A stretch of 64,000 bases of DNA from assembly GCF_029227915.1 (NCBI RefSeq), contig NC_079887.1, forward strand, positions 6,262,001-6,326,000, given 5' to 3'. Positions 3,001 through 62,900 of the stretch are shown one piece after another (the stretch's first letter is position 1; every line of letters starts with the position of its first letter). Under the pieces are notes generated by a model. That model worked only from the letters and a program-made list of their open reading frames with translations. It was not told the DNA's origin and ran no database searches. The translations under genes and the position numbers were made by a program. This stretch comes from Hydractinia symbiolongicarpus. Taxonomy: Eukaryota; Cnidaria; Hydrozoa; Anthoathecata; Hydractiniidae.

Positions 3001-4469
3001 TAGAAGAAGATTTTTTCAAGACCAACCCAAAATTGGCATCCATACAATAAAACAAGCTTCCATTTTTCTAGATTTATTCACAATTAAATATATATAAACT
3101 ATTCTAACAAGATCCTAAAGTTGGTAGTAAAGTTTATAATTGCTACATAAGCTTATTCCTACCTTTGGGCAAGCTGCACATTTCCTAAATCCAGAATAAT
3201 TTGGACTTACTGTCTTCAAATTAAGTAAGCCATAGCGAAATTGTCTAAATTGGTCAATTGCATCTGTTTTCAAAAAGCGATAAAGACATTTTCTCTAGAA
3301 AAATGATTAAAATTACACAAGCTCTAATTATTATAAATGTTTCTTTGACTCACATTTAACTCACACACACAATATTGCAACCGACTAACTAACTGGTGAT
3401 CAAGAATTCCACTTTTCCAAGAAAGTGCATCACAAAAAGATAATAGTGATATTTTCCCTTCTAATTGCAAAGCTATGAAGGTGAAAAGTAGTTCCATAGA
3501 TACCGCTGTTAGTGGTTTTGTAGGAGTTGCAGGCCACACATTGTACTGCACAAGAGAATTCAGTTCTTCATCACATGAACAAAAATACACACAACATTCT
3601 GCAAATACCCTAAATGAGAAAATTTATGTTTTAATTTTAATAACATATATATATAGTACAAATACGGTTGCTTAGTCTTGTATATATATACAAATTGTTG
3701 CAAATATATGTATATATATACTAACGACTTTCACCAATAATTGTCATATTACGAGTATATCTTGACAAACACATTTGTACATGTTGCTGCACAACGTTCG
3801 GGAGTATTTGTACTCTTTTACTTCAAAATGATTCTAAAACCCAATGAAAAGAATCAGTACATATTTTTTGTTACACACAAAGCCACAAAGTTGCATCCAT
3901 ACCAAAAATATAAACCTATTATATCAGCCCTAAAATAAAGTTTTAGTTTTGCATGTAAAAGGCTGAGAGTAAACACTGTGTAATAAATCATAGAAATAAC
4001 TCACAGTAATTTCTTTCTTGCAATGAAATGGAATACTGCTATGAAATTTTTTGCAACAACTGCTGCAATAAGTAACATCTGGACCACATGATTCACACCA
4101 TACACAAGCTGTATTTGAAAAATCTACACCACATTATACACAATTGGATGAAAGCATAAGATGATACTTATTTCCATATGCCAATATAGTATCTTCAGTT
4201 TTTAATTTCCATTCTTCAATTTCCTTTTCTTTGGTCTTTTCGTACAGTCCAGTTTTAACAACAGCTTCGCCACTTATTAGAAACTCACAAGCATTGTGAA
4301 GTTCTGCATCAAAAATATTGTTGCTAGAAGATGAAGGTTGACTTATTGTGATATCATTGTTGGTAGATGGCTGATGTGGTGCACTCTTATAAACTTTTTT
4401 AACTCTGCCATTATGCAACCGACTGCCAACTATTCTAGCACCCTTACGTTTGGTTTTTGCAAATGGCAT
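99..4469 (-). CDS. KDZ-type transposase gene, 13 exons, first exon damaged
   Basis: Exons that join in phase: 3163-3294, 2897-3067, 2632-2768, 2408-2519, 2227-2289, 1974-2154, 1807-1896, 1277-1394, about 1036-1169, 632-796 and 99-466. Before them come 3354-3609 and a first exon 4005-4469. In order the product shows a Lys/Arg-rich N-terminus, a cysteine cluster (CxxC pairs, about 4020-4145), a WPATPTKP segment, a CxxC pair (CAACPK), CMDANFGLV, GVFGMSCRHEYP, YDIACVLKRHL, PLFHSYGHNGNCQ, GLMDGELMERLWSY, a helical tail and an acidic C-terminus. These are the hallmarks of Kyakuja-Dileera-Zisupton transposases, an RNase H-fold family; the Asp of MDANF, the Asp of YDIAC and the Glu of DGE are the likely catalytic triad. 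Oddities: an in-frame TAA at 4134-4136 inside the cysteine cluster, and the strong donor GTGAGT after 4005 (phase 0) does not match either exon-2 acceptor. The gene is therefore a recently damaged transposon or host copy, or has another first exon. The 1036-632 junction is my weakest. Confidence 0.8.
4134..4136 (-). other. in-frame stop codon in the KDZ cysteine cluster
   Basis: The N-terminal exon reads ...SSNCV, then TAA, then CGVDFSNTACVWC in the same frame. Homology-type conservation (paired CxxC, then HxxxPFHC) continues directly after the stop, so this is a nonsense change rather than the natural end of the protein. Confidence 0.7.
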
Positions 4470-7319: not shown

Positions 7320-7388
7320 GCCCTGTTGGTCTAATGGCTATGACACTCATGCAAATGAGAGATCCAGGTTCAAATCCTGGACAGGGCT
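7320..7388 (+). tRNA. tRNA-like element without an anticodon (tRNA-Glu-type body)
   Basis: A perfect 7-bp acceptor stem (GCCCTGT with ACAGGGC), a D arm GTC/GAC with the A box TGGTCTAATGG, and a perfect 5-bp T stem CCAGG/CCTGG around TTCAAAT (B box) are all present. The anticodon arm is a perfect 5-bp stem CTCAT/ATGAG (7346-7350, 7355-7359), but it closes on only four bases, GCAA, instead of seven. The element is therefore three bases short exactly where the anticodon should be. It cannot decode. It is a tRNA pseudogene or a tRNA-shaped pol III unit; no T-run terminator follows closely. Confidence 0.75.
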
Positions 7389-12650: not shown

Positions 12651-13860
12651 ATGATGTTGATCAGCATTTTCGCATTATTATGCATCAGTGGAGCATATAG
12701 TCAATGGATAAACAATTGGGACCAAACTTTTACCTACTCTTGTCCTAATCGTAAGTATTTATCTATCTATTGTAAAATGGCTACTGTAAAAATTTCATCA
12801 TTAAAGCTACTTGACTATGCACTTGTTAATATCAATTACTACACCTCAAAACTGTTTTTTCTTTTTCAGACAAAGCAATTAATGCTCTTATAAGTTATCA
12901 CAGAAATCAATATGAGGATCGTCGATGGAGACTACCTTGCCACAAGTCGTTCTCGCAAGGCGTATCGCACTGGACCAATCATTACGTCAATGATTTTGAC
13001 ATGCCCTTCCAATTTGTCTGTCCACACAACCATGTCATCACTGGAATGAGTGGGGTACATAGCAACCCACATGAAGATAGAAGATATAAGTTCAGATGCT
13101 CGTTGTACGTGGGAAGATATCAAACGGCTTGCGAATGGACAGGCTACTTGAATCAGTTTGACCAATATTTGCATTATGTTGTTCCAAGTACGCATTTCTT
13201 GACAGGAATTAAGAGTTACCATGTAAATCACTACGAGTACGTATAATTTTTAGTTAAATTAGACTTGCGCTTAATTGCTTGCTAAAATTATTTACTTACC
13301 AGGGACCTACTTCTTAACGATTGATTTGCGCGGAGGACAATGTTAATACAGTGTTAGCAATAGAAAAACCTATACAAAGTACGATGTGTTTTTTAAGGCT
13401 TTACAAAAACTTAATCAAAAAAAGAATTTATGATGCGTTTTAATTGAACAACAACTTAAAATCTATGTTAAGTCGAATAAAGGCCATATATTAAATCTTT
13501 TTTTCCGGAAGCAATTGTTTATGTTCTTGCACTTGGACTTGCCCAGTTTTTCCCTTTTTCCAGCCAATTTGAACAGCGAACCTAAAAACTGGATAACTTA
13601 ATTACCGACAAGGTATTAGGCAGAAACTTTGCTGACGTGCTATAATGGTCCAATTATTACTGCATTACGGGCAACGAGGATTGGTTTTTACAGCAGGATA
13701 ATTATAAAATTGAACAAGGCAAATTTAACATCTTCTATATGGTATGCACATCTCACTGGCCGCAGAGGCTAGGATTCTATGTTAATTCTATGTTAATTCT
13801 ATGATATTTAGGGATCGTCGATTTGCTGCTTACATTTGCAAGTTTGTGGCGTCGCGATAG
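12651..13860 (+). CDS. dermatopontin-like secreted protein 1
   Basis: Coding exons 12651-12750, 12870-13236 and 13812-13860 join in phase and give 171 residues. A signal peptide (MMLISIFALLCISGAYS) is followed by QWINNWDQTF and a first conserved cysteine. The mature part has three copies of the dermatopontin-type repeat, each ending in a DRR motif: YEDRRWRLPC, HEDRRYKFRC and YEDRRFAAYIC, plus aromatic-rich DFDMPFQFVCP and WTGYLNQFDQ. Dermatopontins are small extracellular, Tyr-rich matrix proteins that bind collagen, proteoglycans or carbohydrate. The last exon is short and its acceptor follows ATTTAG; without it the frame would stop after HYEYV. The start was chosen for the signal peptide and because gene 2 shares it. 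A secreted matrix or innate lectin-like role is inference. Confidence 0.9.
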
Positions 13861-20812: not shown

Positions 20813-23290
20813 TCATACGTCGTTTACACATTTCGCATAAGCTTTGTCAAGGTAAAAAGCTTTTGCTTTTTTTGAAAATATGCATATTCGCAAACTCACT
20901 GGAAGTTCGTTAAAAGTGTTATACACTTGCGCTTCAAATGTTTTACTCTGAGTTGTCGAACTTGCCATATCTTTGTTATTACCTTGCAAACGTAACGAAC
21001 GACGATTCCCATTGATTGTACTCCTTTTGACGTTAATGTACTCAGGACAGCTTTCGGTTCTGTATAAGTATTTATGCACCAATTTGACAGTAGAGAAATG
21101 GAAACGTTTATTGATGGGAAGCCAACCGAGTTGGTGTACTTCTGAAAGACCAGAATATTTCTTCAGTACGTATCCAGCACAAATATTTTGCAAGCCCTGT
21201 AACCTTCTCAATTGATAATATGGCAGCGGCTGAAATACCACAGTACAATGATCCATTTTAGATAATATTAGTGTTTCGACCATGTTCTTCCTTACACTGA
21301 ATGGTGCAAACCTTTTCAGTTTCTTCATTTGCGCTAGTTTTACATAAGACCTTGTGAGAAGACCGTCAACATGCACTGACCAAGAAAGATGCTCATCAAA
21401 ATGTACACGAAGTATCTTCCAAGATTTCACGCGTTCGATTTCAATTCCATCACACGTGATGGAGAACACATTTTCGTTTGACAGTCGGTGTCTGCTACTT
21501 ATTTTCTGTGTCGAGAAGAGCAATTTTACCGTTTTGTTGGCGTTAAAAATAAGGTTTGATTTCTTGACCAATTTCGTATCGACTTTACATCGTCTCCAAC
21601 AGATTTGCTTAACGTGGCTAATTTTGCTGTTTTACCTGATGTGTAGATTGTTTTATCGTCAGCGTATTGCAGCGTTGAACATTTGTGATTGTAGACATGT
21701 AAGTCAAACCGGACCGAGAATATTACCTTGCGAAACACCCGCTACTACTGTTTTTAGCTGTGACATCTTATCATCAATCTGAACAAACTGCCTACGATCT
21801 TGCAGACAGCTGGTAAGCAGTTGTAAGAAAGATTTTGAAAAATTCAAATGATGTAATTTATTTAATAGCGCTTCATATTTCACATTATCGAAGGCTTTAG
21901 AATAATCTCCGGCAACACAAATTGTAACGTCTCAATTATTCGTAGCTTTTACAATGTCATCACGTAACTTAAGAAGAATGTGGGCACATGAATGTCCCTT
22001 TCTGAAGCCAGGTTGTGTTTGTGAATATATAGATTTGCTTTCAATATAATCGCATATTTGTTGCAAAATAACACGTTCCATAACTTTGGAGAAAATTGGT
22101 AAAATCGACACAGGTCTGTAATCAGACACACATGTTAGGTTATTTTTGGGAATTGGGCATAATCTTGCAGTTTTCCATAAACTCGGAAACAACTGTTTGT
22201 TAATGCAGTTATTGGTAATGTTTGTGATTGGAGAAGCAACAATGTCGGATACAGGTTTCAAGTACTTATAAGGGATATCATTGTACCCTGTTGAACACTC
22301 ATTGCGGATTCCTTGTATAGCTTTTAGTACTTGGTCATAAGTGACATTTTTCAGTTAAAATTTATTTTCTTTGCTTTCATCTTCAGGAAACGAATAAATA
22401 AATTTTAATGGTGCATGTTCATTGGTGCAACTGAGTATCAACTGATTAAATATTTCCAATTGTTCGTCTGGATCATCGACAGCGTAAACTAAACTGAATG
22501 GAAGTTTGGCAAAATCTTGTTTGAAGTTGTTAATGTCAAGATTTTTCTCTATCCGTATATACTTATATTAAGGTTCAAATCGTTGTTTCTTTATGTTTAC
22601 CACGACGTATGGCGCGCCATGATCGGTTATTTCATTACACGGTAAAACATTTACTGCCATTAATTTTGACGGTATGTTAGTAACGATTTGATAAATAAGC
22701 GTTTTATTATGTCTGGTTGCCACATTAACGTGTTGATGAAGACCAAACGATTCAAATACATCCGTGTACTTTTTCACTGTAAGGCAGTCCCTGTTTATCA
22801 TATCAATATTCAGGTCTTCTGTCAGTATGACAATTCCGTCCCATTTACTCATTATTTTCAGCAAGAGGTTATCTAACTTATCTAACCAGTCACGTTTTTC
22901 GGATTTAACTGAGGGGGATGATAAAATGGTAGGAGGAATTCTTTTTTTTCCTTTTATTTCCAACCACAGATGTTCAATCGATTCATCAAGTTTTCTTATA
23001 TCATTTCTCACCTTATAAGATATACCCTCCTTTGAATAAAATCCACCTCCTCGTCTGCTATCTCTTTTTTTATATTCAAAACTATACCCAGGAATGTTGA
23101 CATGCTCCAGCTAATACAAATTATCTTTCAGCCATGTTTCAGACAGACTGATTATATCAAACTTGTAGGTTGTTCACATAACTTCAAACTCACCAAATGT
23201 GACATATTGCGCGGGTGTTCAAATAAGCTTTGCTTGTATGATTTTGATACTCGTCCAGAGTTTGTAAGTGGTAGTTTGAATCCGTACTTT
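20813..23290 (-). mobile_element. non-LTR retrotransposon (CR1/jockey-like), broken
   Basis: Read on the minus strand it starts in an endonuclease domain (SLSETWLKDNLY at about 23130, then RRGGGFYSKEG, and ILTEDLNID with Asn-Asp at about 22820), continues through a linker, and enters reverse transcriptase: CPIPKNN, SDYRPVSILPIFSKVMERVI, QPGFRKGHSCAH (about 22000-22150), then the catalytic YADD at about 21655. A C-terminal 252-codon frame (20813-21571) carries the usual post-RT region (LGWLPINKRFHFST). The reading frame is interrupted between endonuclease and RT (stop near 22357), around 21900 and near 21570, so it is inactive. The 5' end and any ORF1 are missing or unrecognisable upstream of about 23290. 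Confidence 0.9.
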
Positions 23291-27022: not shown

Positions 27023-28470
27023 ATGTTGTTGACCAGCATTTTCGCATTATTATGCATCAGTGGAGCTTATAGTCAATGGATAAACAACTGGGACCAAACT
27101 TTTACCTACTCTTGTCCTAATCGTAAGTATTTATTGTATATTAAAAACTGTAAAAATTTTTGCGTATTTGTCATAGTTGGAGGCTACTTGACTATGTTTC
27201 ATGCTAATACCAATTACCACATCTCAAAACTGTTTGGTGTGTTCTTTTTCAGACAAAGCAATTTATGCTCTTGTAAGTACACACGATAATCATTATGAGG
27301 ACCGTCGATGGAGACTACCTTGCTACAAGTCGTTTTCGCAAGGCGTATCGCACTGGACCAATCATTACGTCAATGACTTTGACAAATATTTCCAATTTGT
27401 CTGTCCTCACAACTATGTTATCACTGGAATGAGTGCATTACATAGCAACCATCACGAAGATAGAAGATATAAGTTCAGATGCTCGTTATACGTAGGAAGA
27501 TATCAAACTGCTTGCCAATGGACAGGCTACTTGAATCAGTTTGATCAAAGTTTGCATTACCATGTGCCAAGCACGCATTTCTTGACAGGAATTCAGAGTT
27601 ACCATAGCAATCACTACGAGTAAGGATAATGTTTTCGCTTATTTGTTTATCTGTTTGCCGAAATTATTCACTTACCAGGGACCTACTTCTGAAACAACAG
27701 CAATTTATTTACGCAGTAGACAATGTATGTCTAGTGTTACCAATACATATGTTCTTTCAAAACTTCACAGAAATTTAATCAGAGAGAAAACGTATGAGCG
27801 TTTTATTTAAACACAATTTAAAATCTATTGGAATAATATTAAAAATTTTCTATAAGCAATCAATTATGTTCTTGCACTTGGACTAGCCAAAATTTCCCAG
27901 CCAATGTTAATAGCGAAATTATGGACTAGATAACTTGATTGGAGACAAAATTTCCCAGCCAATGTTAATAGCGAAATTATGGACTAGATAACTTGATTGG
28001 AGACAAAATTTCCCAGCCAATGTTAATAGCGAAATTATGGACTAGATAACTTGATTGGAGACAAATTTTAGGCAGAAACTTTGCTGACGTAGCATAGTTT
28101 TCCAATTATTACGGCCTTACGAGCGACGAGTTTTGCTTCTTATTGCAGGAAAGTTATTAAATTAAATAAGACAATTTAGTATTTTTTATCTGCTCTGCAT
28201 ACCTCACTGGGCGCAGGGTAATGGCCAGGATTTATTTTATTTTCCATCAATAAAAAAAATAGTGGTTTACTTGATAATCTGTCACAGGGTTGTGAAATGC
28301 AACAAAGTTTTGATGTGTTATTATGTTAATTCTCTGTTAATTCTATGTAAAAATATGTTAATTCTGTAACAGCTCTCTCTTCATTAACTGAGCTAACTTA
28401 ATTTTATATTGCTTTATTTAGAGATCGTCGATTTTCGGCTCGCATTTGCAAGTTTGTGGCGTCACGATAG
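27023..28470 (+). CDS. dermatopontin-like secreted protein 2
   Basis: Coding exons 27023-27122, 27253-27619 and 28422-28470 have the same lengths (100, 367 and 49 nt) and phases as gene 1, giving 171 residues. Signal peptide MLLTSIFALLCISGAYS, repeats YEDRRWRLPC, HEDRRYKFRC and YEDRRFSARIC, and the C-terminus CKFVASR are present. Differences from gene 1 cluster at a few sites (for example HNYVITGMSALHSNHHE for HNHVITGMSGVHSNPHE), mostly conservative, so both copies look maintained. The role should be that of gene 1, an extracellular matrix or lectin-like protein; expression may differ because upstream sequence has diverged. Confidence 0.9.
27888..28063. repeat. 58-bp tandem repeat, three copies
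   Basis: The unit beginning AAATTTCCCAGCCAATGTTA and ending in CTTGATTGGAGACA is repeated three times with no visible change between copies, in the last intron of dermatopontin-like gene 2. Gene 1 has a single diverged unit near 13550-13610. The triplication is therefore recent. Confidence 0.85.
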
Positions 28471-38810: not shown

Positions 38811-39412
38811 AATCATCATTCATCCTCATTCTCGGCTTAACGTCCGTTTTCCATGCTAGCATGGGTTGGACGGTGTATATTAATGACCCTCTTCCAATCT
38901 GATCTAGACTGTGTTAGATCTAAACTCAACTTCCTCTGTAGCAAGTCTGTCCTTATAACCTCCTGCCAAGTCTTTCTCGGTCTGCCTCTGGGCTTTGCCT
39001 TAAGAACAATCAAGTCTCTACACTTTCTTACCCAATTATCCTCCTCCATTCTTTCCAAGTGCCCCAGCCAATTCAATCTTCTTATCTGGATAACATCTTT
39101 AATTCTACGGAGACTTAGCCTGCTTCTTAGCTCATCTGAACTGTCTCTCAGACTGGCGTTACACATCCACCTAACCATTCTCATACCATTCCTTTCTAAA
39201 CGGTCAAGATCTTCACTGCCCATGTCTCACTACCGTACAACATAACACTTCTTACACAGGCCTCATACAACCTACCTTTTACCTCAATTGACAGGACTCT
39301 GCTAGTCAATAAAGGAAGTAACTCTCTGAACTTTTTTCAAGCAGAACATATCCTGCAAGTAACACTTCTTTCAACACCCCCTTCACTGCACTCCAACATA
39401 TCATCTAATTAA
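38811..39412 (-). mobile_element. 5'-truncated LINE, 3' part of reverse transcriptase ORF
   Basis: The minus strand encodes the C-terminal part of a LINE protein: KKFRELLPLLTSR, KGRLYEACVRSVMLYGSETW, then after a one-base frameshift LDRLERNGMRMVRWMC, RRIKDVIQIRRLNWLGHLER and PRGRPRKTWQEVI. The RRLxWxGHxxR region is typical of RTE/CR1-type LINE C-termini. A TGA replaces the usual Trp before KKF. The 3' end carries CCATGCTAGCATGG, then GAGAATGAGGATGAATGATGAT. The element abuts dispersed repeat copy B, as if inserted into it. A second copy of the same family is at 61688-61950. Confidence 0.85.
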
Positions 39413-43517: not shown

Positions 43518-43707
43518 CTATTTGTATTTCGCTCTAAATATTTCTTGACTTTGACTGCCAGTGACTGCTAAATTATTCGCTACTCTTTCTAATTCTTGTT
43601 GAAGTTGTAAAATGTCTGCTTGCAAATTCTCCATGTTTTTATGTAAAGTTTCTTGAAAATCTGACTTGATTGTCTGCAACAGGACAAATTCTTCGAGTTC
43701 GTCTATA
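43518..43707 (-). CDS. possible terminal exon encoding a coiled coil
   Basis: After the acceptor TTTTTATAG a phase-1 exon reads ELEEFVLLQTIK, then a heptad-patterned stretch of about 40 residues (LQADILQLQQELERV) and ends FRAKYK, stop. It is clearly protein-like, but its phase does not fit the last exon of the channel gene upstream (phase 0 or terminal). It is either an alternative C-terminus reached through an exon I did not find, or part of another gene. Confidence 0.4.
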
Positions 43708-44008
43708 AAAATCAATTTAATAATATAAGATAAATGAAAGAAATTTCTGTGTTTTATGTGGAGAAATAAAAATAAAAAATATAAAGGGTTTGAGGCAAAA
43801 TATAGATATATAAACTAACAACTAATTCGCCGGAATGCGCGTAGATGAAAAAACAGTTACTTCAACATATATCTTTTAAATTAATTTTATAGAACTTCTG
43901 TTAACAATAGGTAGTAGTGATCTATTGTTAGCATCGTCTATCAATGTCAAAATTGCTATTATCATTTAGTTGTGTAAAAAGAGATTTTAGATCACATCCG
44001 TAAAAGAA

Positions 44009-44583
44009 AACTCGCGTTGGAACCAAATTATAGACAATTATATTAAGTAAAGATAAATATCTCCTATAACATAGGTGTAAATACGATGCAGTACCATAGA
44101 AAGCAGATGGGCAAGAAAATAAGGGCATGGGCAGGAACATAAAAAATGATATTGTTTTCCAGCTCTTTAAAAACTGATCCAGCAATCTAAAGAAAGAACA
44201 TTCAACTCTCCGATATACAAGAAAGCCGAGCGGCTACACGGAACAACTATATTTTGACTCAACATTTTTATCTTTTCAAAAGAGAAATAATAAATAACTC
44301 GCGTTGGAACCAAATTATAGACAATTATATTAAGTAAAGATAAATATCTCCTATAACATAGGTGTAAATACGATGCAGTACCATAGAAAGCAGATGGGCA
44401 AGAAAATAAGGGCATGGGCAGGAACATAAAAAATGATATTGTTTTCCAGCTCTTTAAAAACTGATCCAGCAATCTAAAGAAAGAACATTCAACTCTCCGA
44501 TATACAAGAAAGCCGAGCGGCTACACGGAACAACTATATTTTGACTCAACATTTTTATCTTTTCAAAAGAGAAATAATAAATA
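44009..44583. repeat. perfect 287-bp tandem duplication carrying an exon
   Basis: The unit starting AACTCGCGTTGGAACC is present twice head to tail (44009-44295 and 44296-44582) with no difference that I can see. Each copy contains the acceptor CTTTCTTTAG and the last exon of the channel gene, so that exon exists twice. The identity implies a very recent event, or an assembly join of two haplotypes. Confidence 0.9.
44064..44186 (-). CDS. duplicate last exon of the channel gene
   Basis: Second, identical copy of the 123-nt terminal exon (IAGSVFKELENN, membrane segment, stop) with its own acceptor. Because the exon ends in a stop, using either copy gives the same protein; only the 3' UTR would differ. 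Confidence 0.7.
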   Translation of the reverse strand: MAGSVFKELENNIIFYVPAHALIFLPICFLWYCIVFTPML

Positions 44584-47500
44584 ACAAGGAATTATTTTTA
44601 CCACTCCAGCTTTTATTTAAAAAAGACTTTATGCGAAAAGATAATATAAGGGAAAAATGATGCGGAAAAAGTAATTCTTTGCTTAGTTGCATGTTTTTTC
44701 TTTAATTTTTATTAAAAAGAAAATGAAACGGTAACCATTTCATCATTTGAACGCATGGAGACTTCCTTGGATCTAATTAACAGCAGCAACAAAAGAAGAT
44801 TTGAAACAATCGCTTTAGTCATAATAACCCAACCCATTCTAGAAACTGCGTGTTCCATAGTTAAGGAACCAAGTATCACCATCCAGGACAACAGAATTTT
44901 CAGAAGAAAAATCGACAGGCGTGATCGTGTGCTAAAAGGCGTGATCAGGTGACTAAAAAGCGTGATCATGTGACTAAAAGGCGTGATCATGTGACTAACA
45001 TAGAAAGAAAGAAAAATAATTAGTTAATAAACACATTAATTTATTTCCATTATGGGGAGGAATAAATAAAACACGACTTCTTTTTTATTCTCTATCATTG
45101 AGTTGGTGTATCTTTACGATATCATGATGTTTGTACTACTGATGAAGTCCTGGTCGTACTCGTACTAAGCCTAATTGGCTTAAAAAGCCCAGAAGAGAGG
45201 GGAGTTACCTACTTTATTGCCAGAAATGTTAGCGGGAGCAAACTTTGGTGGTTCCGCGTTTTTTCAAAAAATTGCGAAATTGAATCCAGTGAATTACCAT
45301 GTTATTTCTCGATACGCAAAAATGAATTATACGAAACTGTTACAAAGTCTTGACCTGCTAAAAAAGTTTTCGCAAAATTTTAGAAGGTGGTAGACTAACT
45401 AAAATTACTAAAGCTTATGTTCCACTATTTTAGACTTTTTACGGTTTCGGAATATAAGCCATGAAGTATATAAATGTAATAATATATAATTCGGACTAAA
45501 TGACGCCATCCAAATTTTTTTATCCTAATTTCCACCAATGTGCTATTTGTGCCAAATATTGTGGCAATACAATGCCTCTTTTCTAACTTTCAAAGGGGTA
45601 GGTTTCTTACTTAGTCCCAAAAAGCCTAGGTACGAATGGCGTTCAAATTTGACAGGTATACAAGTAAATACTCTAGCATATCAAGTAAGGAGTTACACAA
45701 CAAGGAATGCAACATCACATCGACTTTTGCGTACATAGTCAAGCTAGCACGCACTTTACTGAAAACAGTTCATTACCTTTTTTTAATGGTTTCTTCAAAA
45801 ATAATTTTTCTCTCAAAAAACCGATCGCACACAATGTCACCATGGTTATACTAAGTGATATTAAAATAACTCGTAAATTCACGGTTGATGGTGAAAGCAA
45901 ACTTTGCGAACTTTCCTCTATTGTAGAAATTGTGAAATTCGTCTAAACATAAATGCTCATGATATTATATTTCAAGTGAGTGATTTTGCAAACAACATAC
46001 AGCCAGGTAGATTTTGCGAGAGCGACACTGTATACAATGACGGAGCAAGCAGGTATTATAAACTTAACAAGCTTTTTTTCTTTAGCCCTTCAGTACGTAA
46101 AGCTTGGCTTAGGAACTGTGCTTTACACAGAGATTTTTCAAGGGGAAATGTCATTTGGTGGGAAAAACGTGTCCGTGTTATAAAGTGTCAGCGATATAAC
46201 TGTCCGTCTTATAGAAATTCTTGTGAGAGTTTGACCTGAAATAAGTCCGTCCCAAGGAATAGTGTCCGTTATATAGTTGTGGCCGCTTTAGACCATGTCC
46301 GCTTTAGAGAGATTCCACTGTAATATACTTACCCTGAGAGGAGGTAACAGTTTCCGAATGTTATCATAAATTTCACCCTGCGTGCCCAGTACATGCTGAG
46401 TCAAGCAATTCCTTAACTTTACGGTTCGTGTCCGCAACACGGCACCATAAGCGCTTACATCCTCAATTACTGTCTGAATTCTGTAGTTTTTGAAATGTTC
46501 TTGGTAATAACTGGCTGTAAATATTTCGATTATTCCACCAGTAAGATCTTTATGCACTTTCAGCGCATGTATAAATTGAGAAACATCAGTGTAAGCTAAA
46601 CAAAATATTTCGTATTTAAGTTTTCATTTTCCACATTATTTTGGAGAAGAGGTGGCTCGTGGATAAATCCTCTTTGTTGCCCGTCCTTTATTTACCGCAT
46701 TTAGTGTGTCTCGCTATGTAAACGGGTATTATAATATAGCAACCTCGTCTCCAGGGCATCTTGTATCTCTTCTAACATTGGACAGCGATGCGATCGTCCC
46801 GAGATAAAAAAAGAGACAACAGGCGCTGGGAACGAGGTATTATAATACAGATGTTTAACTAGTCTCTTCATGTGTGAGTTATAAAAAAGAAATATATGTA
46901 GAAATAGCTAGAGTGGGCGTGTTAAGGTAGCTAAAGTGGCCGTGTAGAGGTAGCTAGAATAGGCGTGTTAAGGTGGCTAGAGTGGGCGGCAAAAGGTAGC
47001 TAGAATGGACGTGTTGTGGTACCTAAAGTGAGCGTGTACAGGTAGCTAAGATTCCAATGAAAAGGTTACAAACATCTTACCACATCTTATCGCGAAATTA
47101 ATTAAAATAACGAAACTGAACTAATTTCCGTGTAAATATATAATGTAGTTTTTGTCCTGGCGGCGTTTCATATGTCCAGGGTTTTTAAGGAGAACCTTAC
47201 TAAAAATAATACCTTCTGGATAACCGTTCTTCTGCACGATTACTTTATGTTCTTGTGATCCTCTGATTACTCCAATCTACACAAAAAAAAACATACAATA
47301 TATCATTTCCTAATAAATGATCGTCTCTCGTAGTTTACAGTTAAAATTTTCCAACTTTTTTTCTGAAAGTGGAGAAAAAACTAGTTACGAGAAAACAGGG
47401 AATGGCAGCAGAGGGAAATCAATTTATTTTTAGTTTGACGTGGAATTGCCTTTTCTTTCCATCATATTAATGTGAAAGCACGACCTATCCGCAAGCACAA

Positions 47501-50500
47501 TCACCCCGAAGCGATATCTATCCGCAAGCATAGTCACTTCAGAGCGATATCTATCCGCATGCACAATCATTTCGGAGCGATATCTATCCGCAAGCACAAT
47601 CATTTGGAAGCAATATCTATCCGCAAATGCAATCATTCCGGAGCGATATCCATCCGCAAGCGCAATAATTCCGGAACGATATATATCTGCAGCATACTTG
47701 TTCCGAAGCGATATCTGTCTGCAAGCACAATCACTTTGGAGCGATATTTATCCGCAAGCACAATTATCCTGGATCTATATCTATCCGCCAGCACAATCAT
47801 TCCTGAGCAATGTATATATATATATATCCGCAAAGTATGAACATGGTCTGATGACGCTCTTTTTTCCTGATAATGGCTATAAGAACTCAAGCTACAAAAC
47901 AGCTCATTTCGCGCAGACGAAAACAAATAAACATCAGAAGTTATAATAGAAAAGCAAGTGAAGAAAACGCACCTCTGATCCAGCGATATCTAACTCAGCA
48001 CTGAAGCATTCTGACACAAGAACTGACGTCACTGTTGCTGTATACGCTGCTATAGCAACACTGCTGCATAGCAACCACATGTAACAAATAATTCGACTGA
48101 GTAATCGAGTGGGTAAAATATCTCCGTATCTATAGGAAAAACATGCACGAAATGGTCATATAGGAAATAAATTTGTAAATTTCTCTATATTCTTCAATTT
48201 TTGCAAATATTCTAACGTAACAAAGTTCAAAAATTTAAATGGTAAATAATTACATTTGAGCGATTACTAAATATAGATTATGAGGTTAAGGTCATGCTTT
48301 ATTTTTATACTAAGCATGTTTTATTCTAGTGTGAACCCTCCTAAGAGGTTCTTTAGCCACTTTGCTGTCCCTTAACATTAAAAAGTTTCTCTTTTGTTAA
48401 AGCTTCGAATATTGCAAACAAAAGCGTTTAATATGACGTTAACGTGACGTTTAATGTGACGTTCGTTAGTTATACCATGGATACAAACAGTTGGTTTATC
48501 TAGTAACAAATTCTCAAATGTCGTTTCCATTGATCACGAGTTTCGGTAGATTTTTGTTTTGCTAAAGTTCTTTACATATGTTTAATTTTGACGAAACAGC
48601 AAATCGGTCAACCATAACTCAACCAGATCTTGTTTCAGTAACAAAGGAGAAGTAAAATCTGGAGAGTATAGAAGAAAGATATCAACGGGAGAGAAAATGA
48701 AAAAGCAACCAGGAAGCCACCCTCACGGATGCTAAGACAGATCTTGATTAAGGAACGAGAGTAAAATAAAATCTTGAGAGCATAGAAAAAAAATATCAAG
48801 AGGAAGAATAATGAAAAAAGCCTCCGAGAAGCCGCCCTCTCGGATGCTAAAACAGATCCTGATCAAGGACAGGAATTGAAATAACATTTGAAAAGTACAG
48901 GGGGACGATATCAACGATAGAGAGATAATGAAATCGCATCCGAGAAACCGCTGTCTCGGATGCGAAGAAAGATCTTGATCAAAGAACGAAAGTAAGTTAA
49001 CATCTGAAGAGTATAAATAGACGATATCCACGGGAGACATTACGAAAAAACATCCAAGAAGCCGCCCTTTCGGATGTTAAGACAGATGCTGATCAAGGAA
49101 CGGAATTGAAATAACATCTGGGTAGGACGGAATGACGATATCAACAAGAAACAAATAATGAAATTGCATTCGAAAAGCTGCTGTCTTGGATGCGAAGATA
49201 GATGTTGATCAAAGAATGAATGTGAGTTAACATCTGGAGGTTATAGAGAGACGATATCCACCGGAGAGATAGTGAAAAAACATATGAGAAACAGCCCTCT
49301 CGGATGCGAAGACAGATGTTGATCAAAGAATGAATGTGAGTTAACATCTGGAGAGTATAGAGAGACGGTATCAAGGGGAGACATAATGAAAATACATCCG
49401 AGAAGCCGCGCTCTTGGATGCTAAGACAGATCCTTATCAACGAACGGAATTGAAATAACATCTGGGAAGTACAGAATGACGATATCATCGAGAGGAAGAT
49501 AATGAAATGCATCTGAGAAATCACCCTCTCGGATGCTAAGGCAGATCTTGAGCAAGTAAAAGAATTAAATTAACATGTGGAGAGTATGGAAGGATGACAT
49601 TAACAAAAGAGATAGAGAAATTGCATCCGAGAAGCCTCCCTCTCGGTTGCGAAAACAAATATTGATTAAAGAACGAAAGTAAGTTAACACCTGGAGCGTA
49701 AAGAAAGACGATATCAACAGGAGATATAGTAAAAAAGCATTCCAGGTGTTCTCTGGGACGTTGTGGTAGATTGCTTCAGCAGTTAAATTGAAATAACTGG
49801 ATCACAGAAAGAATATTAAATTTTGTTAAATAAGGAAGGTGAATTAATAACTGGATAATAGGAACCGAATTAAAGCAAGAAAGATAATAAAAGTGCATCC
49901 GAAAACGTTTTATCGGATACTAAATTAGAAATCGTGATTAAATACAAAAGCACAATGTTAGAGGTAAGTATAATTTATAAGATTTCTTTTAGATACTTTG
50001 AGGTGTTTTGAATTAACAAAAATGACAATTAATAAATTATCAGCAACGATAATCTAAGCAATAACAGTTTTTAATTTTTCTATTGATTCACTGACTGTTA
50101 AAGCTACTCGTCTTTACTAATATACAAGAGTAGTGTATAATCGTGACAGGTACTTTCTAAAGCCTTAATTTCTGACCTTTATTTCTTTAGAAACTCGCAT
50201 CGAAAGTTTGCAGGAAATCAACTGGCAACATATTTAATTAATTGATTGATTGATCGAATATGGAAGTGAATAAAATTTCAAACGTTGTTCAAGTGACGAC
50301 ACATAATAGCGCATATTTCGAAAGTGCCACTACGAAGAGCCTTGTGCTTATTCACAACGAGACATCTTGTGCAATTGAATTCTTTTTCGATTATAACAAT
50401 ATTTTTTTTTCAATTATAACGATCTCAAGAAATAAAGGACACTCTTATCTCGACCCTTTTCTAAGTCAATATTTTTAATATTTTCTCGAATATTACTGAT

Positions 50501-53500
50501 TGACTTGTTGACTGCAGAGTTTTGACTGTACCACCTATAGCTTAGTGGTAGAGCAGGACACCTTCAAATGTCTTGACGTAGGTTCGATTCCTACTTGGTT
50601 TTACAGTTGAAATTTTTGCATACCAGCCAGTTATGACGTAATACTGTGAGAAATTATTTTCTCCTTGTAATCTTTATGCCCCTTCGTCAAGTTGCGTGAC
50701 ACTTTTGTGTTTATGTTTACGTTGTAAAATTGTAAAAAGAAAGATAATTAGAAACAGGTACTTCTATTTTTTTTGCCACATTATTTGGAATCGTCTTTGT
50801 TTTGTTTGTTTTTGTTTTTTCTTATTATGATTCTAATTCAGTATGTAGAAAATAGCCCCACAATCGCTGCCCACTTTTAAAATGAAGGGGGTCCTGGTGC
50901 ATTTAAAGCTCTTACTTAAACTACGAAAGCCGTGCAAATACAGAAATCGCTTAACTAGACAATCGTCTAAGACATCAATCCTATTTTCACTGAACGCTAT
51001 TCAAAAAGAAAAGATTTTCACTTTTATAGTTGATGGCATGACTCGGTCGGGGTTTAAATTCGCGACCTTACACAGGCAGCGAACGCTCCACCACAAGGCA
51101 AGGTAATAAAACACTCAGATACTTGAATATCTTATTAAAAAATCGCTTTTATTATCAAGATATATGTGCCTATATGTCATTTATGTGCCTAAAAGCAATG
51201 TCACTTATATTCTGTGCGTCTTCGATTGGGGGGACTAGTTGTACACACAAAATTACTCGCTGTTATATACTTAATTCGAAATCTATTACGCCTAATCTAA
51301 TATGTTTTGTATAAAAATATCAAAATTTGAGTAGGTTTGTCATTAACCCGATGTCTCCATTGTTTTAAACAATAGATCTGTTGTTTTGAATCCCGAAAGC
51401 CCGGCCGAAACTCTTACGGAGCATATTATTGGTAAAAAATGTGTAGGTACACTATTCTCACTTTCTTTTAGGCCTACCTACCCGAATACACCTTTCTTCT
51501 TGTTTTCCTTTTTTAGCAACCTTCAACACTCGTTAGAGTAACCGCTCCCACCCTTTTATTTATTTTAGTTATAATGTATCAACATACGTTTCTTTATAAG
51601 AATATAGGTTTGTAAGAATATCAGGCTGATCTTTTAGGAAAAAAACAATTTGCCTTTTGTTTAGAACAATAGAGATACACAAAAAGAAAGAAAGAAGAAT
51701 AATGACCAGTCAGGTTGGAATTTTGATATTTTCATAGAAAACGCGTGTATACCGTGAAGCATCAAATTTTTCAAATCGTTGTCTTAAAAAATTTTTTTAA
51801 CTACCGTTGTCGCCCTATTTTGCTCCTTCAAATTTGTGCAAACGTAGTGGCTACCTTTAGCCTGTTTTAATTTCTTTTTATGATCTCTTAAAAGTTCATT
51901 TAGTAAACGGCCAGGTTAACTTAACAGGTTTCAAAACCTAGCATTACTTTGGTCACAGGCCAAGTAGCATACACTACTTTGTTTTTCCAAGTGTAAATTT
52001 AACAAGTATTGGATGTGTCGCTATTGTGAATGTATTTTAGTTGCACCTTTTTAATAACGAGATAGTTTATGCAGCTTCTTGTTTGGAATAACGCGATTTT
52101 CTTTATAAGCTAAAATTTGTTTTGAAATTTAACATCAAAATGTGACGTCAAAGTTTTACTTTCCTTTAGAAATTAAAATCAAATCCAAATAGACGCTAAA
52201 GAAAAAGACGTTTTATTTTTTTTTATTTTTTTTTTATTTTTTTTTTTGTTTATTTATTTTATTTTTAAATTTAATTTAAAACTTAAAATGTAAAATTTTT
52301 ATTTTATTTTTAAAAAAGTTGAATTAGGTTGGATATCTATCACGAGATCCTCCACCTCATTCTCCTTCTCCTCTGCCATTATATCAACAACCGTCCAACA
52401 TAATTTTGCATTTCCCGGTAATAAATGAAAAGGATCTCCCAAGCAGTCAATGAACTTTCAATATCAAAATAGGCACTAAACTGTCAAACTGATAATATCT
52501 TCAATATTCCCGTCTCGTTCGTTCTCGTTCTATTCGTTGCACATATAAGATGATCAAAGGCGTAATTTTGAAAGTTGTGTTTATCTTTTGAATCTTTTGC
52601 TTTCCAAAAGGCTATGTTTACGTAAAACGCTTGTTGTGTTACGCTTCTTATAGATTAAACGCAACAAAAAATTTAATCTGACTTTAACTGTACTACTCTG
52701 ATCTGTCTGATTGCTATATTTATATTCGCATCGGTTAAGATAGAACACTTTTAGGTGAGATGAAACACCTAAATGTTTATAACTTCTTCGTTATTTAAAA
52801 AACCATAAATTAAAAATATTGCTATAGAAAAGAAAGAAGCTACAACTAAGAACAATAATGACGTTTTTAACAGTCGTTATCACATATAAAGTTAGTTAGT
52901 TTAGCTCGTTATATTGGATTACACGCAAAACAGAATGCAAGTAGGTTTAAAGAGCAAGCTTGATATTATGCAACTTTTAAAATGGATCAGAGTGTAAATA
53001 TGCAAAAATCTGGTATACGAAACAAAATAGAATAAGGGAAGACATATGAACTCTATAAAGCACCTGATTGGGAGCTATAATTTTAATTTCTTTTAGCTAC
53101 CAATGTATAAATTAACATTCGTACCCGACAGTTGCCAAGGTAATGAAAGACCACCAGATTCCTTCCCATAACTCCTTCAGCATCTCCTTAAAACTTCTAT
53201 CTTCACCATATTTCTGTGGCAGAATTTCAACAATCCAGAATGCCACTCCAACATTGATAACCCAAACAATGAGTAAGGATACTAGAGGAAGGCTAGCCAC
53301 AATACTTTTTTTGATGGCTGCCCCAGCTGAACCTTTTCGAAGATTGTAAAGAACTGATCCTGGTGATTCCACTAAAGAAGGGAAAATACATATAAACACA
53401 ACGATAATGCAGACTTGTGAGTTTTTAAAAGTAAATAAACATTTTTCAATTCATGATGTAAACACTAAGTTGTGCGAAATTTTAAGTATTTCACATGATA

Positions 53501-54366
53501 AGTAACCTTGCAGAATACTTACCAAGGCTTACAAATGGAAAAGCGAGAAAATTATCTTTATCAGGAGCTGTTCTGATTGGTAAGACAATATCCAAGGAGC
53601 TGTTGAGAGAATTTTCCACTAAAGTTATATATTCAAAAAACTGAGCAGAATAAACCAGAGTGACGTTGTTCCTGCAGCATTTCACTAAGCCTTTCTCTAA
53701 AATATCGACCACTGGCCCTGTTACTAAGTCTGCAGTCTCATTATATACAACGTACGGTGGGGTCTCTTTCCAGCCGATGTAGATTTCACCAGGACATTGG
53801 AAAAGCTTAGGAAGAGGACATCCAACTAAAAAAAATTAGAAAGATCACGCATACAATATTAACTCTATGATAGACTTTCCTGCATATTTTCCAACACAAA
53901 GCGTGACTGGTTTTGATCAAGTTTACTGAAAAATAATGTTGATAGATGCCTAGAAAATTGTGTTGGTGGCTATGTTGTAAGTTGCCAGATCTTGTGTCCT
54001 GATTATAACCTATTTAAATGTCAATTTCAAACGTGTCCAAAAGGTGTTGCTTTTTTGAAAAACTAACACAGACAAGAAAAATAAATTTTCCACCAAATGG
54101 AATACTAACCACAAACCAATTAGATTGTTCAAAACAGATAATTGCTGCACGCATGGCAATATAAAGACCATTCTCGTTCCCAGAATTCCCAAAGACCCCT
54201 GGGTTCGAGAATGCATAAAGATGTTTATATTTTTTTTTAGTGCAGGTTAATTGTTTAGAGGTGTATGTCTTTGAACATCCTACAAATTATTTTTTAGATC
54301 TATACAAGAACAACAAAATGACTCACCAAACACCACCAAGTTGACAAAGAGGAGAAATTTTATCAT
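44351..54366 (-). CDS. ionotropic-receptor-type channel with K+ filter (GluR0-like)
   Basis: Exons 54327-54366, 53523-53825, 53125-53371, 47973-48129, 47213-47276, 46333-46595 and 44351-44473 join in phase throughout: 398 residues. Residues 1-16 are a signal peptide (MIKFLLFVNLVVF). S1 follows (YIGWKETPPYVVYN, GPVVDILEKG, LDIVLPIRTAPDKD, FPFVSLVESPG), matching the first lobe of receptor/periplasmic binding domains. M1 is about 138-161. The pore helix WEGIWWSFITLA leads into TVGYGD (195-200), the potassium filter. M2 (about 210-235) ends AYTATVTSVLV, like the SYTANLAAF gate of glutamate receptors. S2 spans 237-358 (IGVIRGSQEH, GGIIEIFTASYYQEHF, AYGAVL). A third membrane segment (371-394) ends the protein. 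There is no amino-terminal domain. It should form a ligand-gated potassium channel in the plasma membrane. The receptor Arg that holds glutamate appears to be Lys (TAPDK), so the ligand may differ. Confidence 0.85.
44919..44998. repeat. 21-bp minisatellite, four copies
   Basis: Units of GGCGTGATCATGTGACTAAAA, intronic in the channel gene. An open frame on the minus strand (44712-44990) runs through it and encodes hydrophobic leucines, but no acceptor in phase was found. Confidence 0.8.
46182..46321. mobile_element. Tigger-type element end (right)
   Basis: Reading inward from 46321: CAGTGGAATCTCTCTAAAGCGGAC, followed by GTCCG words, with TA just outside. The tip is only 11 bp from the donor of channel exon 6, so the element sits at the very start of intron 6. 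Confidence 0.6.
46903..47055. repeat. about 24-bp minisatellite, six copies
   Basis: Units of GGTAGCTAGAATGGGCGTGTTAA-type with substitutions, in intron 5 of the channel gene. Confidence 0.75.
47485..47815. repeat. 33-bp minisatellite, about ten copies
   Basis: The unit is GCGATATCTATCCGCAAGCA plus a variable 13 bp (CAATCATTTCGGA and similar), in intron 4 of the channel gene. As 33 is a multiple of three, it creates repetitive open frames on both strands (AISIRKHNH, VLADRYR); these are not genes. Confidence 0.9.
48600..49950. repeat. 115-bp satellite array with one hairpin per unit
   Basis: About ten to eleven diverged copies spaced 114-117 bp (marker TCTCGGATGC at about 48838, 48955, 49298, 49527). 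Each unit contains GCATCCGAGA, then 8 bp, then TCTCGGATGC, a 10-bp inverted repeat able to form a stem-loop; arms co-vary in some units (GCATTCGAAA or CATATGAGAA versions are weaker). The array lies in the long intron 3 of the channel gene. Confidence 0.85.
50531..50602 (+). tRNA. tRNA-like pseudogene
   Basis: A box TAGCTTAGTGG and B box GGTTCGATTCC are canonical, the T stem GTAGG/CCTAC is perfect and the D arm AGC/GAGC is good. The acceptor stem (CCACCTA against TTGGTTT) has at least three mismatches and the anticodon loop has eight bases (CCTTCAAA), so it is unlikely to be a functional tRNA. It may be the head of a tRNA-derived SINE, though no body is evident downstream. Confidence 0.6.
51000..51105 (-). 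mobile_element. tRNA-derived SINE (minus strand)
   Basis: Reverse complement begins GCCTTGTGGTGGAGCGTTCG, with a tRNA D-arm/A-box shape, followed by CTGCCTGTGTAAGGTCGCGA, then TTTAAACCCCGACCGAGTCA, a degenerate B box and its downstream GAGTCATGCC. This tRNA-head organisation is common in invertebrate SINEs. The tail towards 50950 is not clear. Confidence 0.6.
51106..53100. other. intronic, no further gene
   Basis: Rest of the long third intron of the channel gene. A T/A low-complexity tract with runs of TTTTTATTTTT lies at 52205-52315. I see nothing else. Confidence 0.5.
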
Positions 54367-59900: not shown

Positions 59901-62900
59901 GATCTAAGGTGCATCAAACGCTGTTGAAGGAAAAATATTCAGAATAAAATATTTTTCCTTTAACAAATTCCAGCTTTAACAATTTTTACCAGACATGAAA
60001 ATTTAAAAACAAAACAAAAATACTATCGGAAATTAGAGCTTGCGCAGTACAGTATTACAAATATCGTCATAAATTTCTACGCAAAGTTTTTGAAGCAATA
60101 ATTTTTCCGCGGAATTTACCTTAATGGTAGCAAAAAAGCAAATAAAAAACAAAGCGGGGTATGAACAAGTGGGGTGTGAACAAGCGGGATATGAACACAC
60201 AGGGTATGAACACGCGGGTATGAACACGCGGGGTATGAACAGCCACGTGGACAGTCACATATATTCAATACCTCTCAACTTTAACTTTTGCTGTTTCTTT
60301 CTCCTCGGCACGTTTCTTTATAGCACTTTCCCTCTCTTTTTTCTCTTTTTCACGTTTGGCATTTTTCTCCGCTCTGTCCAAACGGATTTGCTCCTTAACT
60401 TTTTCTCGGGCTGCTTTTTCGTCAGCCTTCTGTTTTGCTATCTCTTTCGCCAGGTCTTTAGTTTGACGTTCAGCAATATTACGTTTTGCCATGCTTAACT
60501 CCTTACCTACATCTCGACGCTTACGTTCCTCCTCTTTCAAAGTCTAAAAAGGGAATATTATATGTGTTTTGCTTCTGAGATGGAAGAAAGAAAAGTACCA
60601 TAGTGTGGTTATTCAAAAGAAAAAAAAAGGATTATTGGGTATATTTTCTATGTGTATTTTTGAAAAGCTCTATGGCGATATATACACTTTTAGTGAAAAT
60701 TTTCCACGAAAAAAAGCGTAGTTTTACTAAATGTATATTCTCACTATATATATATATATACTTTTGATACGCAATACCCAATATTTTTCCATGATTAGAA
60801 TAGGATATAGAAAATTTTAAGTATATTAAAACAAAACTGAGCGCATTGTGAATTTGAAAGAGCAGCTCGAAAACAAAAATTATATATTTTCACCTCCTTT
60901 GCTTTCTCTGCTTTTATGTCTCTAGCTTTCTGCAATAACTGTTCTGCTCTTTCTTTTGCTGAGTTGCTAGTATTGGCTGAGGGTGGTTCATCTTTTGTTG
61001 GTTTGTTTGCTTCTGACATCTCACTGGTGTGCGTCTAAAACATGTTTTTATGCATATAAATACTACATCATTGTTTTAACCCACTTCAACTTGTAAAAAA
61101 TTCTGACTTTTCGCTCATCCAGTTTGAAATCGCAATTAGTACATATCCAATCGAAGAATATGTTCGAAAAAACGAATGTTCAAATTGAACAGCAGTTTAA
61201 CGAAACAAAAAAACCCGAAATTTGTTTAATAAGCAAAAGTTCAAATTAACGACATCCAAGTAGCGGATGTACATAAAATGTATATTAAATACAAAATGAG
61301 ACAACCAAAATCGTTTTTTACAGTCTTTCCTGACTTTAACTTAGCTAAAAATTGACTGTGTTGACTAATTTCCTCCTTCATGCTGGCATAGATTTGTCCC
61401 TAGCAAGTTGCTCAAAGTTGATACGCGATATGAAAATTTGGACGGCTGTTATTAAGTAAAAGTGTATATATTATCTTAGCCTTGTGGAGAAATAAACAGT
61501 TTTTATACACAACAAAAATATCACATTCATACAAACCTGGTTAGATTCATTACGAGAAGTTTCATGAACTGTCTGATGGCTTATGTTAGTGCTGTTAGTC
61601 TGTTCAACTTGGAGAATTTTCTAAAAAAGTTTTTAGCTACTAAGAACATTTGTTTTCTGTCCAGCCACATACAGATACTTTAATGTCACAAAGAATGGAG
61701 AGAATGGAGGAGGATAATTGGGTAAGAAAGTGTAGAGACTTGATAGTTCCTAGGGCAAAGCCCAGAGGCAGACCGAGAAAGACTTGGCAGGAGGTTATAA
61801 GGACAGACTTGATACAGAGGAAGTTGAGTTTAGATCTAACACAGTCTAGATCAGATTGGGAGAGGGTCATTAATATACCCCGTCCAACCCATGCTAGCAT
61901 GGAAAACGGACGTTAACCTGAGAATGATGATGATGATGATGATGATGAAAGATCAATTTAAATCCTGTAAAAATCACAATGCGAAAATGATAAATCGCCG
62001 ATGTAAAATCTGTACGTTTTTTTTTATTTTATTCGTTTTACACAGGCTATTTATGATTTAATTCTAAAATAAATCAATTTAACAGTTTGTTGTGTTGCTG
62101 TTTTTAAAGAGGGTAGCTTTGTTATTCTGTTTGATGAAATCTGGTTTATGTTAGGAAGACAGAAGAAAGTTTGCAACACACAATCATATCGCGGTATAGA
62201 TTTGTTTTTGAGGTTCATATAAAAATAACGTTATTCAGGTTTTATCACTATTTTTTTAATAATAAATTCTACACATCTTGTTTAAACTTTATGTGTGCAG
62301 GTGTGGCAATTCTTTGGTAAATGTTAGGAAAAGTAAATATACCTGGATTCCTTTCTGAAGTCTCTGGAAGAGTTCTTCCTTTTGTAGAACACCAGGAATG
62401 ATGTCAATAGGCATCCCTTCATTGTTTATCAAATATGTCGATGGAATGTTTAAAATGGGATCTACTTGAAAGTGAAAGAAAAACTAAGACAACAAAAGAG
62501 CCCAAAATAAAGAGGAAAAAATCTTAACATAAATTAAGACTTTCAAAGGACACAAAATGATTTTTTGAAAGTAAAAACTAACATCAAAAACTTGTAAGAA
62601 AATTTGCAGGGTTCAGAATAAGTACTTGTTTCAAGATCTGTGAAGCCTACATAATATTACACAGTTTTTTTGCTAAAATAAGAAGTGTGTAGCCAATGGC
62701 AACATGAAAAAAGGATACATATAGATGAAAACTGTTTCCCCGCAACACTATCAGCTGAGACGTTTATGGCGACGCATGTATCAGGCGAACAGATAGTTGC
62801 AACCTAATGAATTAAACAAATCAACACCATTGTGTTCCTTTGTGTCCCAATGTACAAACACATTAATAACAAAAAGGCAAATTATTTCCAATACATACTT

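Follow-up and report, generated by a model that had tools for sequence, protein, structure and literature searches.

What kind of receptor results when the body of an ionotropic glutamate receptor (iGluR) carries the selectivity filter of a potassium (K+) channel? The question is raised by a gene on the minus strand of a 64,000-nucleotide stretch of the genome of the colonial marine hydrozoan Hydractinia symbiolongicarpus (hereafter the window; C13:6262001-6326000 of a 480.9-Mb assembly), the predicted product of which has a pore with the motif TVGYGD set between two ligand-binding lobes. The evidence assembled here makes it likely that this gene encodes a subunit of a ligand-gated, K+-selective and hyperpolarising receptor of the iGluR fold, belonging to an animal family of its own. 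Four membrane passes combined with a K+ filter are already known, from published descriptions, in the rotifer receptor AvGluR1, so a single gene adds a member to that kind and the novelty that an earlier interpretation of the DNA letters alone (the sequence-only reading) had implied for the combination is not supported. What is new at the level of sequence is the breadth of the family, its expansion, the existence of members bearing CUB and Ig domains, and an arginine for the ligand carboxylate that is not conserved.

A spliced gene of eight exons

The gene spans positions 43518-54366 and comprises eight exons encoding 474 amino acids (Table 1), in place of the seven exons and 398 residues of the sequence-only reading. 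The first six exons of that reading stand, with AG/GT borders (a donor only in the case of exon 1) and in-frame joining through the filter, between TVG and YGD. All junctions are covered by P0001, a public protein of a close relative (474 amino acids; source 'lgn'; four contigs, the longest of 1,984 nt), which was recovered in the homologue search at 95% identity over 98% of the query. It is identical to the eight-exon model at 454/474 positions, and the 20 listed differences all lie outside the filter. The critical join between exons 3 and 4 (53125 to 48129) is likewise crossed by P0001, a sequence from a relative and from a contig whose type is not shown. As this contig is at most 1,984 nt long, against a genomic coding span of about 10.8 kb, it is best read as spliced RNA. 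No second near-identical copy was listed in a protein search of the Hydractinia genome, where the next best place has 30-35% identity.

After exon 6, P0001 continues into exon 7, which holds M4, and exon 8, which holds the coiled coil. The seventh exon of the sequence-only reading is rejected, being missing from P0001 and lying inside an exact 287-bp tandem duplication, both copies of which contain its start (44473 and 44186). It was mistaken for the last exon because its hydropathy is that of a membrane segment (2.22, vs 2.48 for the real M4). The duplication itself, at 100% identity, is either very recent or an assembly artefact.

When a 425-residue read-through model (the last 12 residues of which are intron) was compared with Pfam, Ion_trans_2 (E 3.7e-11) and Lig_chan (E 8.1e-9) were both matched at E-values that pass the curated cut-offs, so the match is not due to chance. 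Bacterial contamination is ruled out by the introns, by the 28.4-Mb contig of an animal assembly in which the gene lies, and by its cnidarian relatives.

Predicted fold, topology and pore

The AlphaFold model of P0001 (96% identical to the window protein; pLDDT 85) contains a two-lobe binding domain, M1, a pore loop, M3, M4 (residues 379-407) and a C-terminal helix at residues 413-473 that is predicted to form a coiled-coil tail. High-confidence predictions of this two-lobe fold were obtained for two distantly related family members. An S1/S2 domain split by the pore, the hallmark of the iGluR superfamily, is supported by the model, fold matches and profile alignment alike, and is accompanied by M1, a re-entrant pore loop, M3 and, following S2, an M4 helix of the eukaryotic type. 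Within M3, AYTATVTSVLV aligns with the SYTANLAAF motif, although identity is only partial. Behind the pore helix stands a TXVGYG-type filter (TVGYGD), in place of the non-selective Q/R/N-type filter of conventional iGluRs, and the presence of M4 sets the protein apart from prokaryotic GluR0, in which no helix follows S2. The sequence-only reading had described an animal receptor with binding lobes, an inverted TVGYGD pore and a terminal membrane helix; the model, the alignment and counts of hydrophobic segments bear out this description, including the two-lobe domain. In a fold search with P0001 the GluR0 core heads the list, tied with others; the binding domain of AvGluR1 was not among the best 50 matches and was listed in a second fold search.

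A family spread among cnidarians and at least one annelid

Relatives proved numerous. A two-sequence profile search returned 142 proteins; among the best 120 of these, all animal matches with a name are cnidarian (Oculina, Stylophora, Acropora, Montipora, Pocillopora, Porites, Nematostella, Actinia, Actinostola, Exaiptasia, Rhopilema and Hydractinia), and the others are prokaryotic or nameless. Among the names given in databases are 'uncharacterized protein', 'hypothetical protein', 'Potassium channel domain-containing' and, once, 'glutamate [NMDA] receptor subunit 1-like'. A further search with ten open reading frames (ORFs) from the Hydractinia genome, which scored the 8,000 candidates with most shared words, brought in Clytia, Dendronephthya and the annelid Owenia fusiformis among the best 120 of 288 matches. 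The Owenia protein (P0163, 514 amino acids) matches the others in its four hydrophobic segments and in TVGYGD, and by its sequence extends the K+-filter class beyond cnidarians and rotifers.

TVGYGD is found in 90/98 animal-class matches from corals, anemones, jellyfish and hydrozoans, and a further 2/98 are fragments beginning at most 8 residues from a filter-type motif. The last hydrophobic segment is present in 116/119 animal rows vs 0/76 prokaryotic rows, a count that covered 119/130 animal-class rows, 76/79 prokaryotic-class rows and 23/24 Hydractinia ORFs, leaving aside rows lacking the motif or having fewer than 150 residues past it. Several anthozoan members carry additional extracellular modules N-terminal of the binding domain, namely CUB, mostly together with Ig (P0056, P0059-P0062, P0064-P0066, P0070 and P0071); P0164 also has extra modules of this sort, and P0174 has fibronectin type III. 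No paper on a cnidarian K+-filter iGluR was found among those listed from the open-licence PMC literature, which is not proof of absence.

Expansion in the Hydractinia genome

The protein search of the Hydractinia genome listed 44 places, six of them within the window gene. Besides that gene, the K+-filter family comprises 25 ORF loci, of which 21 are full length in a single open frame; these are lower bounds, made up of 24 ORFs that contain a filter-type motif (20 being full length and starting at a methionine) plus L031 (444 codons). The four incomplete loci are L021 (cut by the fetched stretch), L023 (an exon piece), the second ORF of L012, and L016 (the last two lacking one end). Loci L011, L029 and L030 stand outside the count, as do L033, L034, L035 and L037, which were judged by eye to be ordinary voltage-gated channels; L036 yielded no motif-bearing ORF of 90 codons. 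Clusters of ORFs occur at C13:7.74-7.85 Mb, C5:21.36-21.37 Mb, C7:7.88 Mb and C4:24.85 Mb (L012, L013, L016-L022, L031). Such clusters of single-frame ORFs would be explained if an ancient retrocopy had later multiplied in tandem.

The copies show constraint, with dN/dS of 0.20-0.42 over whole ORFs in 7/7 paralogue pairs (which share members). Among 20 paralogues the mean pairwise identity is 0.242 for S1, 0.278 for S2, 0.263 for M4 and 0.595 for the pore helix and filter. A genome search with Lig_chan found 43 places, which by-eye sorting divided into 17 of the K+-filter family, 21 in 20 conventional-candidate regions and five that were not fetched. TVGYG is absent from 20/20 conventional Hydractinia ORFs, and the canonical arginine is kept in 18/18 of those whose printed part covers the stretch (by eye); Hydractinia therefore has conventional iGluRs beside its K+-filter receptors. 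Lig_chan was unmatched in 14 control genomes, a result of little weight as their kind is not shown. A single-cell study of Hydractinia reports terms for iGluR signalling enriched in one neuron type (PMC12464821); these terms may or may not concern the K+-filter genes.

Relationship to other channels, and origin

Prokaryotic GluR0 and GluR0-like proteins likewise have binding lobes split by a TVGYGD pore, but they lack the last hydrophobic segment that the animal family possesses, and they form a separate branch. Conventional animal iGluRs (NMDA1, AMPA and cnidarian types) share the S1-M1-P-M3-S2-M4 plan, and their M3 motif, SYTANLAAFLT, aligns at partial identity with that of the window protein; they differ at the filter. 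Kv-type channels have a similar pore helix and filter, whereas the window protein lacks a voltage sensor, has its pore inverted between binding lobes and has M4. The Ionotropic Receptors (IRs) of protostomes resemble the Hydractinia family in their diverged pocket and lineage expansions; unlike it, they conduct cations non-selectively and are not known to have a K+ filter.

The closest likeness is to AvGluR1, from the bdelloid rotifer Adineta vaga, which published work describes as K+ selective with the four-pass architecture of eukaryotic iGluRs (PMC11479355, PMC12332018, PMC12226733), as a presumed evolutionary intermediate (PMC11479355, PMC12332018) and as opened by glutamate and other amino acids (PMC12226733). 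It shares four passes and a K+ filter with the cnidarian family, a comparison drawn from the published description rather than from a tree. AvGluR1 is activated by amino acids, however, whereas the canonical arginine is not conserved in the animal family described here.

In a tree of 81 rows, a branch with SH-aLRT 100 separates the 58 family rows from all others. After removal of the filter columns and realignment, in a 74-row tree including 13 Hydractinia conventional iGluRs and GluA2, 42 family rows remain together (SH-aLRT 99) and the 14 conventional iGluRs group at 97; the branch thus survives, and the filter is not what holds the group together. Support for the prokaryotic side is 79 and 45 in the respective trees, which were built from chosen rows and settle neither the deep branching among the three groups nor the position of the root nor the sequence of events. 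Within the family, the 20 single-frame Hydractinia ORFs group with one Clytia and three nameless rows (SH-aLRT 99); the intron-bearing window gene falls outside this set and pairs with P0162 (99). Recent transfer from bacteria is disfavoured by M4 and by the separate branch.

The ligand-binding pocket

In amino-acid-binding iGluRs, S1 supplies an arginine for the ligand carboxylate. In an alignment of 76/137 proteins (A3; two others, A7 and A6, hold 46 and 40), this arginine occupies the aligned column in 14/14 prokaryotic rows. P0001 and the window protein have asparagine there, P0001 with a lysine two residues before, in a region where the alignment is loose because of gaps. The four letters that run up to the following column include an arginine in 22/62 animal rows, and the animal pattern is, by sequence, not one of conservation. 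The amino-acid ligand that the sequence-only reading had implied is consequently doubtful. Given also that the filter has diverged far more slowly than the lobes, recognition of the ligand probably departs from the standard amino-acid mode.

Proposed function and its alternatives

From gene structure, topology, filter, fold, family membership and paralogue constraint, all of them read from sequence or prediction, we infer a tetramer that would be K+ selective, gated by ligand and hyperpolarising, with chemosensation as its likeliest use. The extracellular two-lobe domain would shut on its ligand and tug on M3, the movement of which would open the inverted, TVGYGD-lined pore. K+ would then leave the cell and the membrane would hyperpolarise, quietening the cell rather than exciting it, and the hyperpolarisation upon ligand binding that the sequence-only reading had foreseen is a sound expectation. 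M4 and the cytosolic coiled coil may aid subunit assembly. The family is distinct from both GluR0-like proteins and conventional iGluRs, its Hydractinia copies mainly occupying a single open frame.

Several points weigh against such a receptor. Arginine is found at the aligned column in only 7/62 animal rows and one column earlier in 18/62 (some rows having it in both), which leaves room for a binding domain without function or for an obligate partner. The motif is missing in 6/98 animal-class matches, two of them long (P0032 and P0041), and many rows were placed in that class by similarity. The structure predictions are of monomers only; both trees are 'quick', without bootstraps; and the Owenia row is a long branch whose position within the family is unsure. 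P0001 derives from a relative, and its contig could be either RNA or DNA. For none of the family's members was a function found. An unlikely, though the most probable, alternative is a K+-permeable channel open independently of ligand, or else a subunit with a regulatory or chaperone role, in either case with a two-lobe domain that no longer binds. The lack of a conserved canonical arginine and the low identity of S1 and S2 beside the pore would suit it, but a confident two-lobe prediction in two distant members and dN/dS below 0.5 in seven paralogue pairs speak against it. Protostome IRs, moreover, bind ligands despite the divergence of their pockets.

Somewhat less probable still is an amino-acid-gated K+ receptor like AvGluR1 in which other pocket residues replace the arginine, as that residue is present in all 14 prokaryotic rows and, by eye, all 18 conventional Hydractinia ORFs that display the stretch, and not here. 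That the locus is a decaying or mis-joined gene without a product is very improbable: its long introns contain repeat arrays and one exact duplication, and no NCBI-named Hydractinia protein for it appears among 19 homologue matches, but P0001 matches it through every junction with an unaltered filter.

If the ligand-gated K+ receptor is correct, a direct ligand-gated K+ route to inhibition is suggested. In the literature consulted, AvGluR1 is the one K+-filter receptor of the glutamate type cited from an animal, and a cnidarian-wide family together with an annelid would turn this rotifer oddity into a broad animal class, offering many sequences for testing shifts in the ion preference of the iGluR pore, with Hydractinia already in established use as a research organism. 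More tentatively, cnidarians and at least one annelid may have preserved an ancient lineage of the iGluR fold in which the K+ filter was either never lost or regained, and from which hydrozoans would have built numerous fast, inhibitory chemoreceptors that respond to external chemicals by opening a K+ pore directly; the lineage would then be a living relative of the K+-passing stage that has been proposed in the descent of animal glutamate receptors.

Organisation of the locus and the rest of the window

Table 1. Features of the K+-filter receptor gene, in positions of the window
Feature	Position	Strand	Basis
Exon 1, start codon and signal peptide	54327..54366	-	splice reading; matches P0001
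Exon 2, S1 lobe of ligand-binding domain	53523..53825	-	strands and helices in model
Exon 3, S1 end, M1, pore helix, filter TV and most of G	53125..53371	-	splice reading, model
Exon 4, rest of filter (YGD), M3 with AYTATVTSVLV, S2 start	47973..48129	-	profile alignment
Exon 5, S2 lobe	47213..47276	-	splice reading, P0001 comparison
Exon 6, S2 lobe	46333..46595	-	splice reading, P0001 comparison
Exon 7, post-S2 link and real M4 helix	45777..45942	-	P0001; not in sequence-only reading
Exon 8, cytosolic coiled-coil tail and stop codon	43518..43702	-	P0001; outside coordinates of sequence-only reading
Decoy 'last exon', hydrophobic open stretch in intron 7	44351..44473	-	absent from P0001
Tandem duplication, 2 x 287 bp, 100% match, in intron 7, holds decoy exon	44009..44585		

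Introns 3 and 4 contain minisatellites (48649-49740 and 47485-47808; units of 114/230/344 bp and 33 bp). A sequence resembling a transfer RNA (tRNA) lies in intron 3 on the opposite strand (50533-50599, +; Rfam RF00005, 46.5 bits), without an ARAGORN call; conversely, an ARAGORN tRNA at 7320 has no Rfam match at the gathering score and was rejected. Elsewhere in the window are two ORFs with a dermatopontin domain (12830-13246 and 27192-27623; Pfam DERM, E ~4e-35), and a reverse-transcriptase fragment and a cysteine-cluster ORF of the KDZ-transposase-associated kind (21932-22354 and 3324-3623). The ORF at 38837-39226 has no Pfam match; it and the stretch at 61644-61916 are very similar, both contain RPRKTWQEVIRTDL, and they are probably copies of one repeat.

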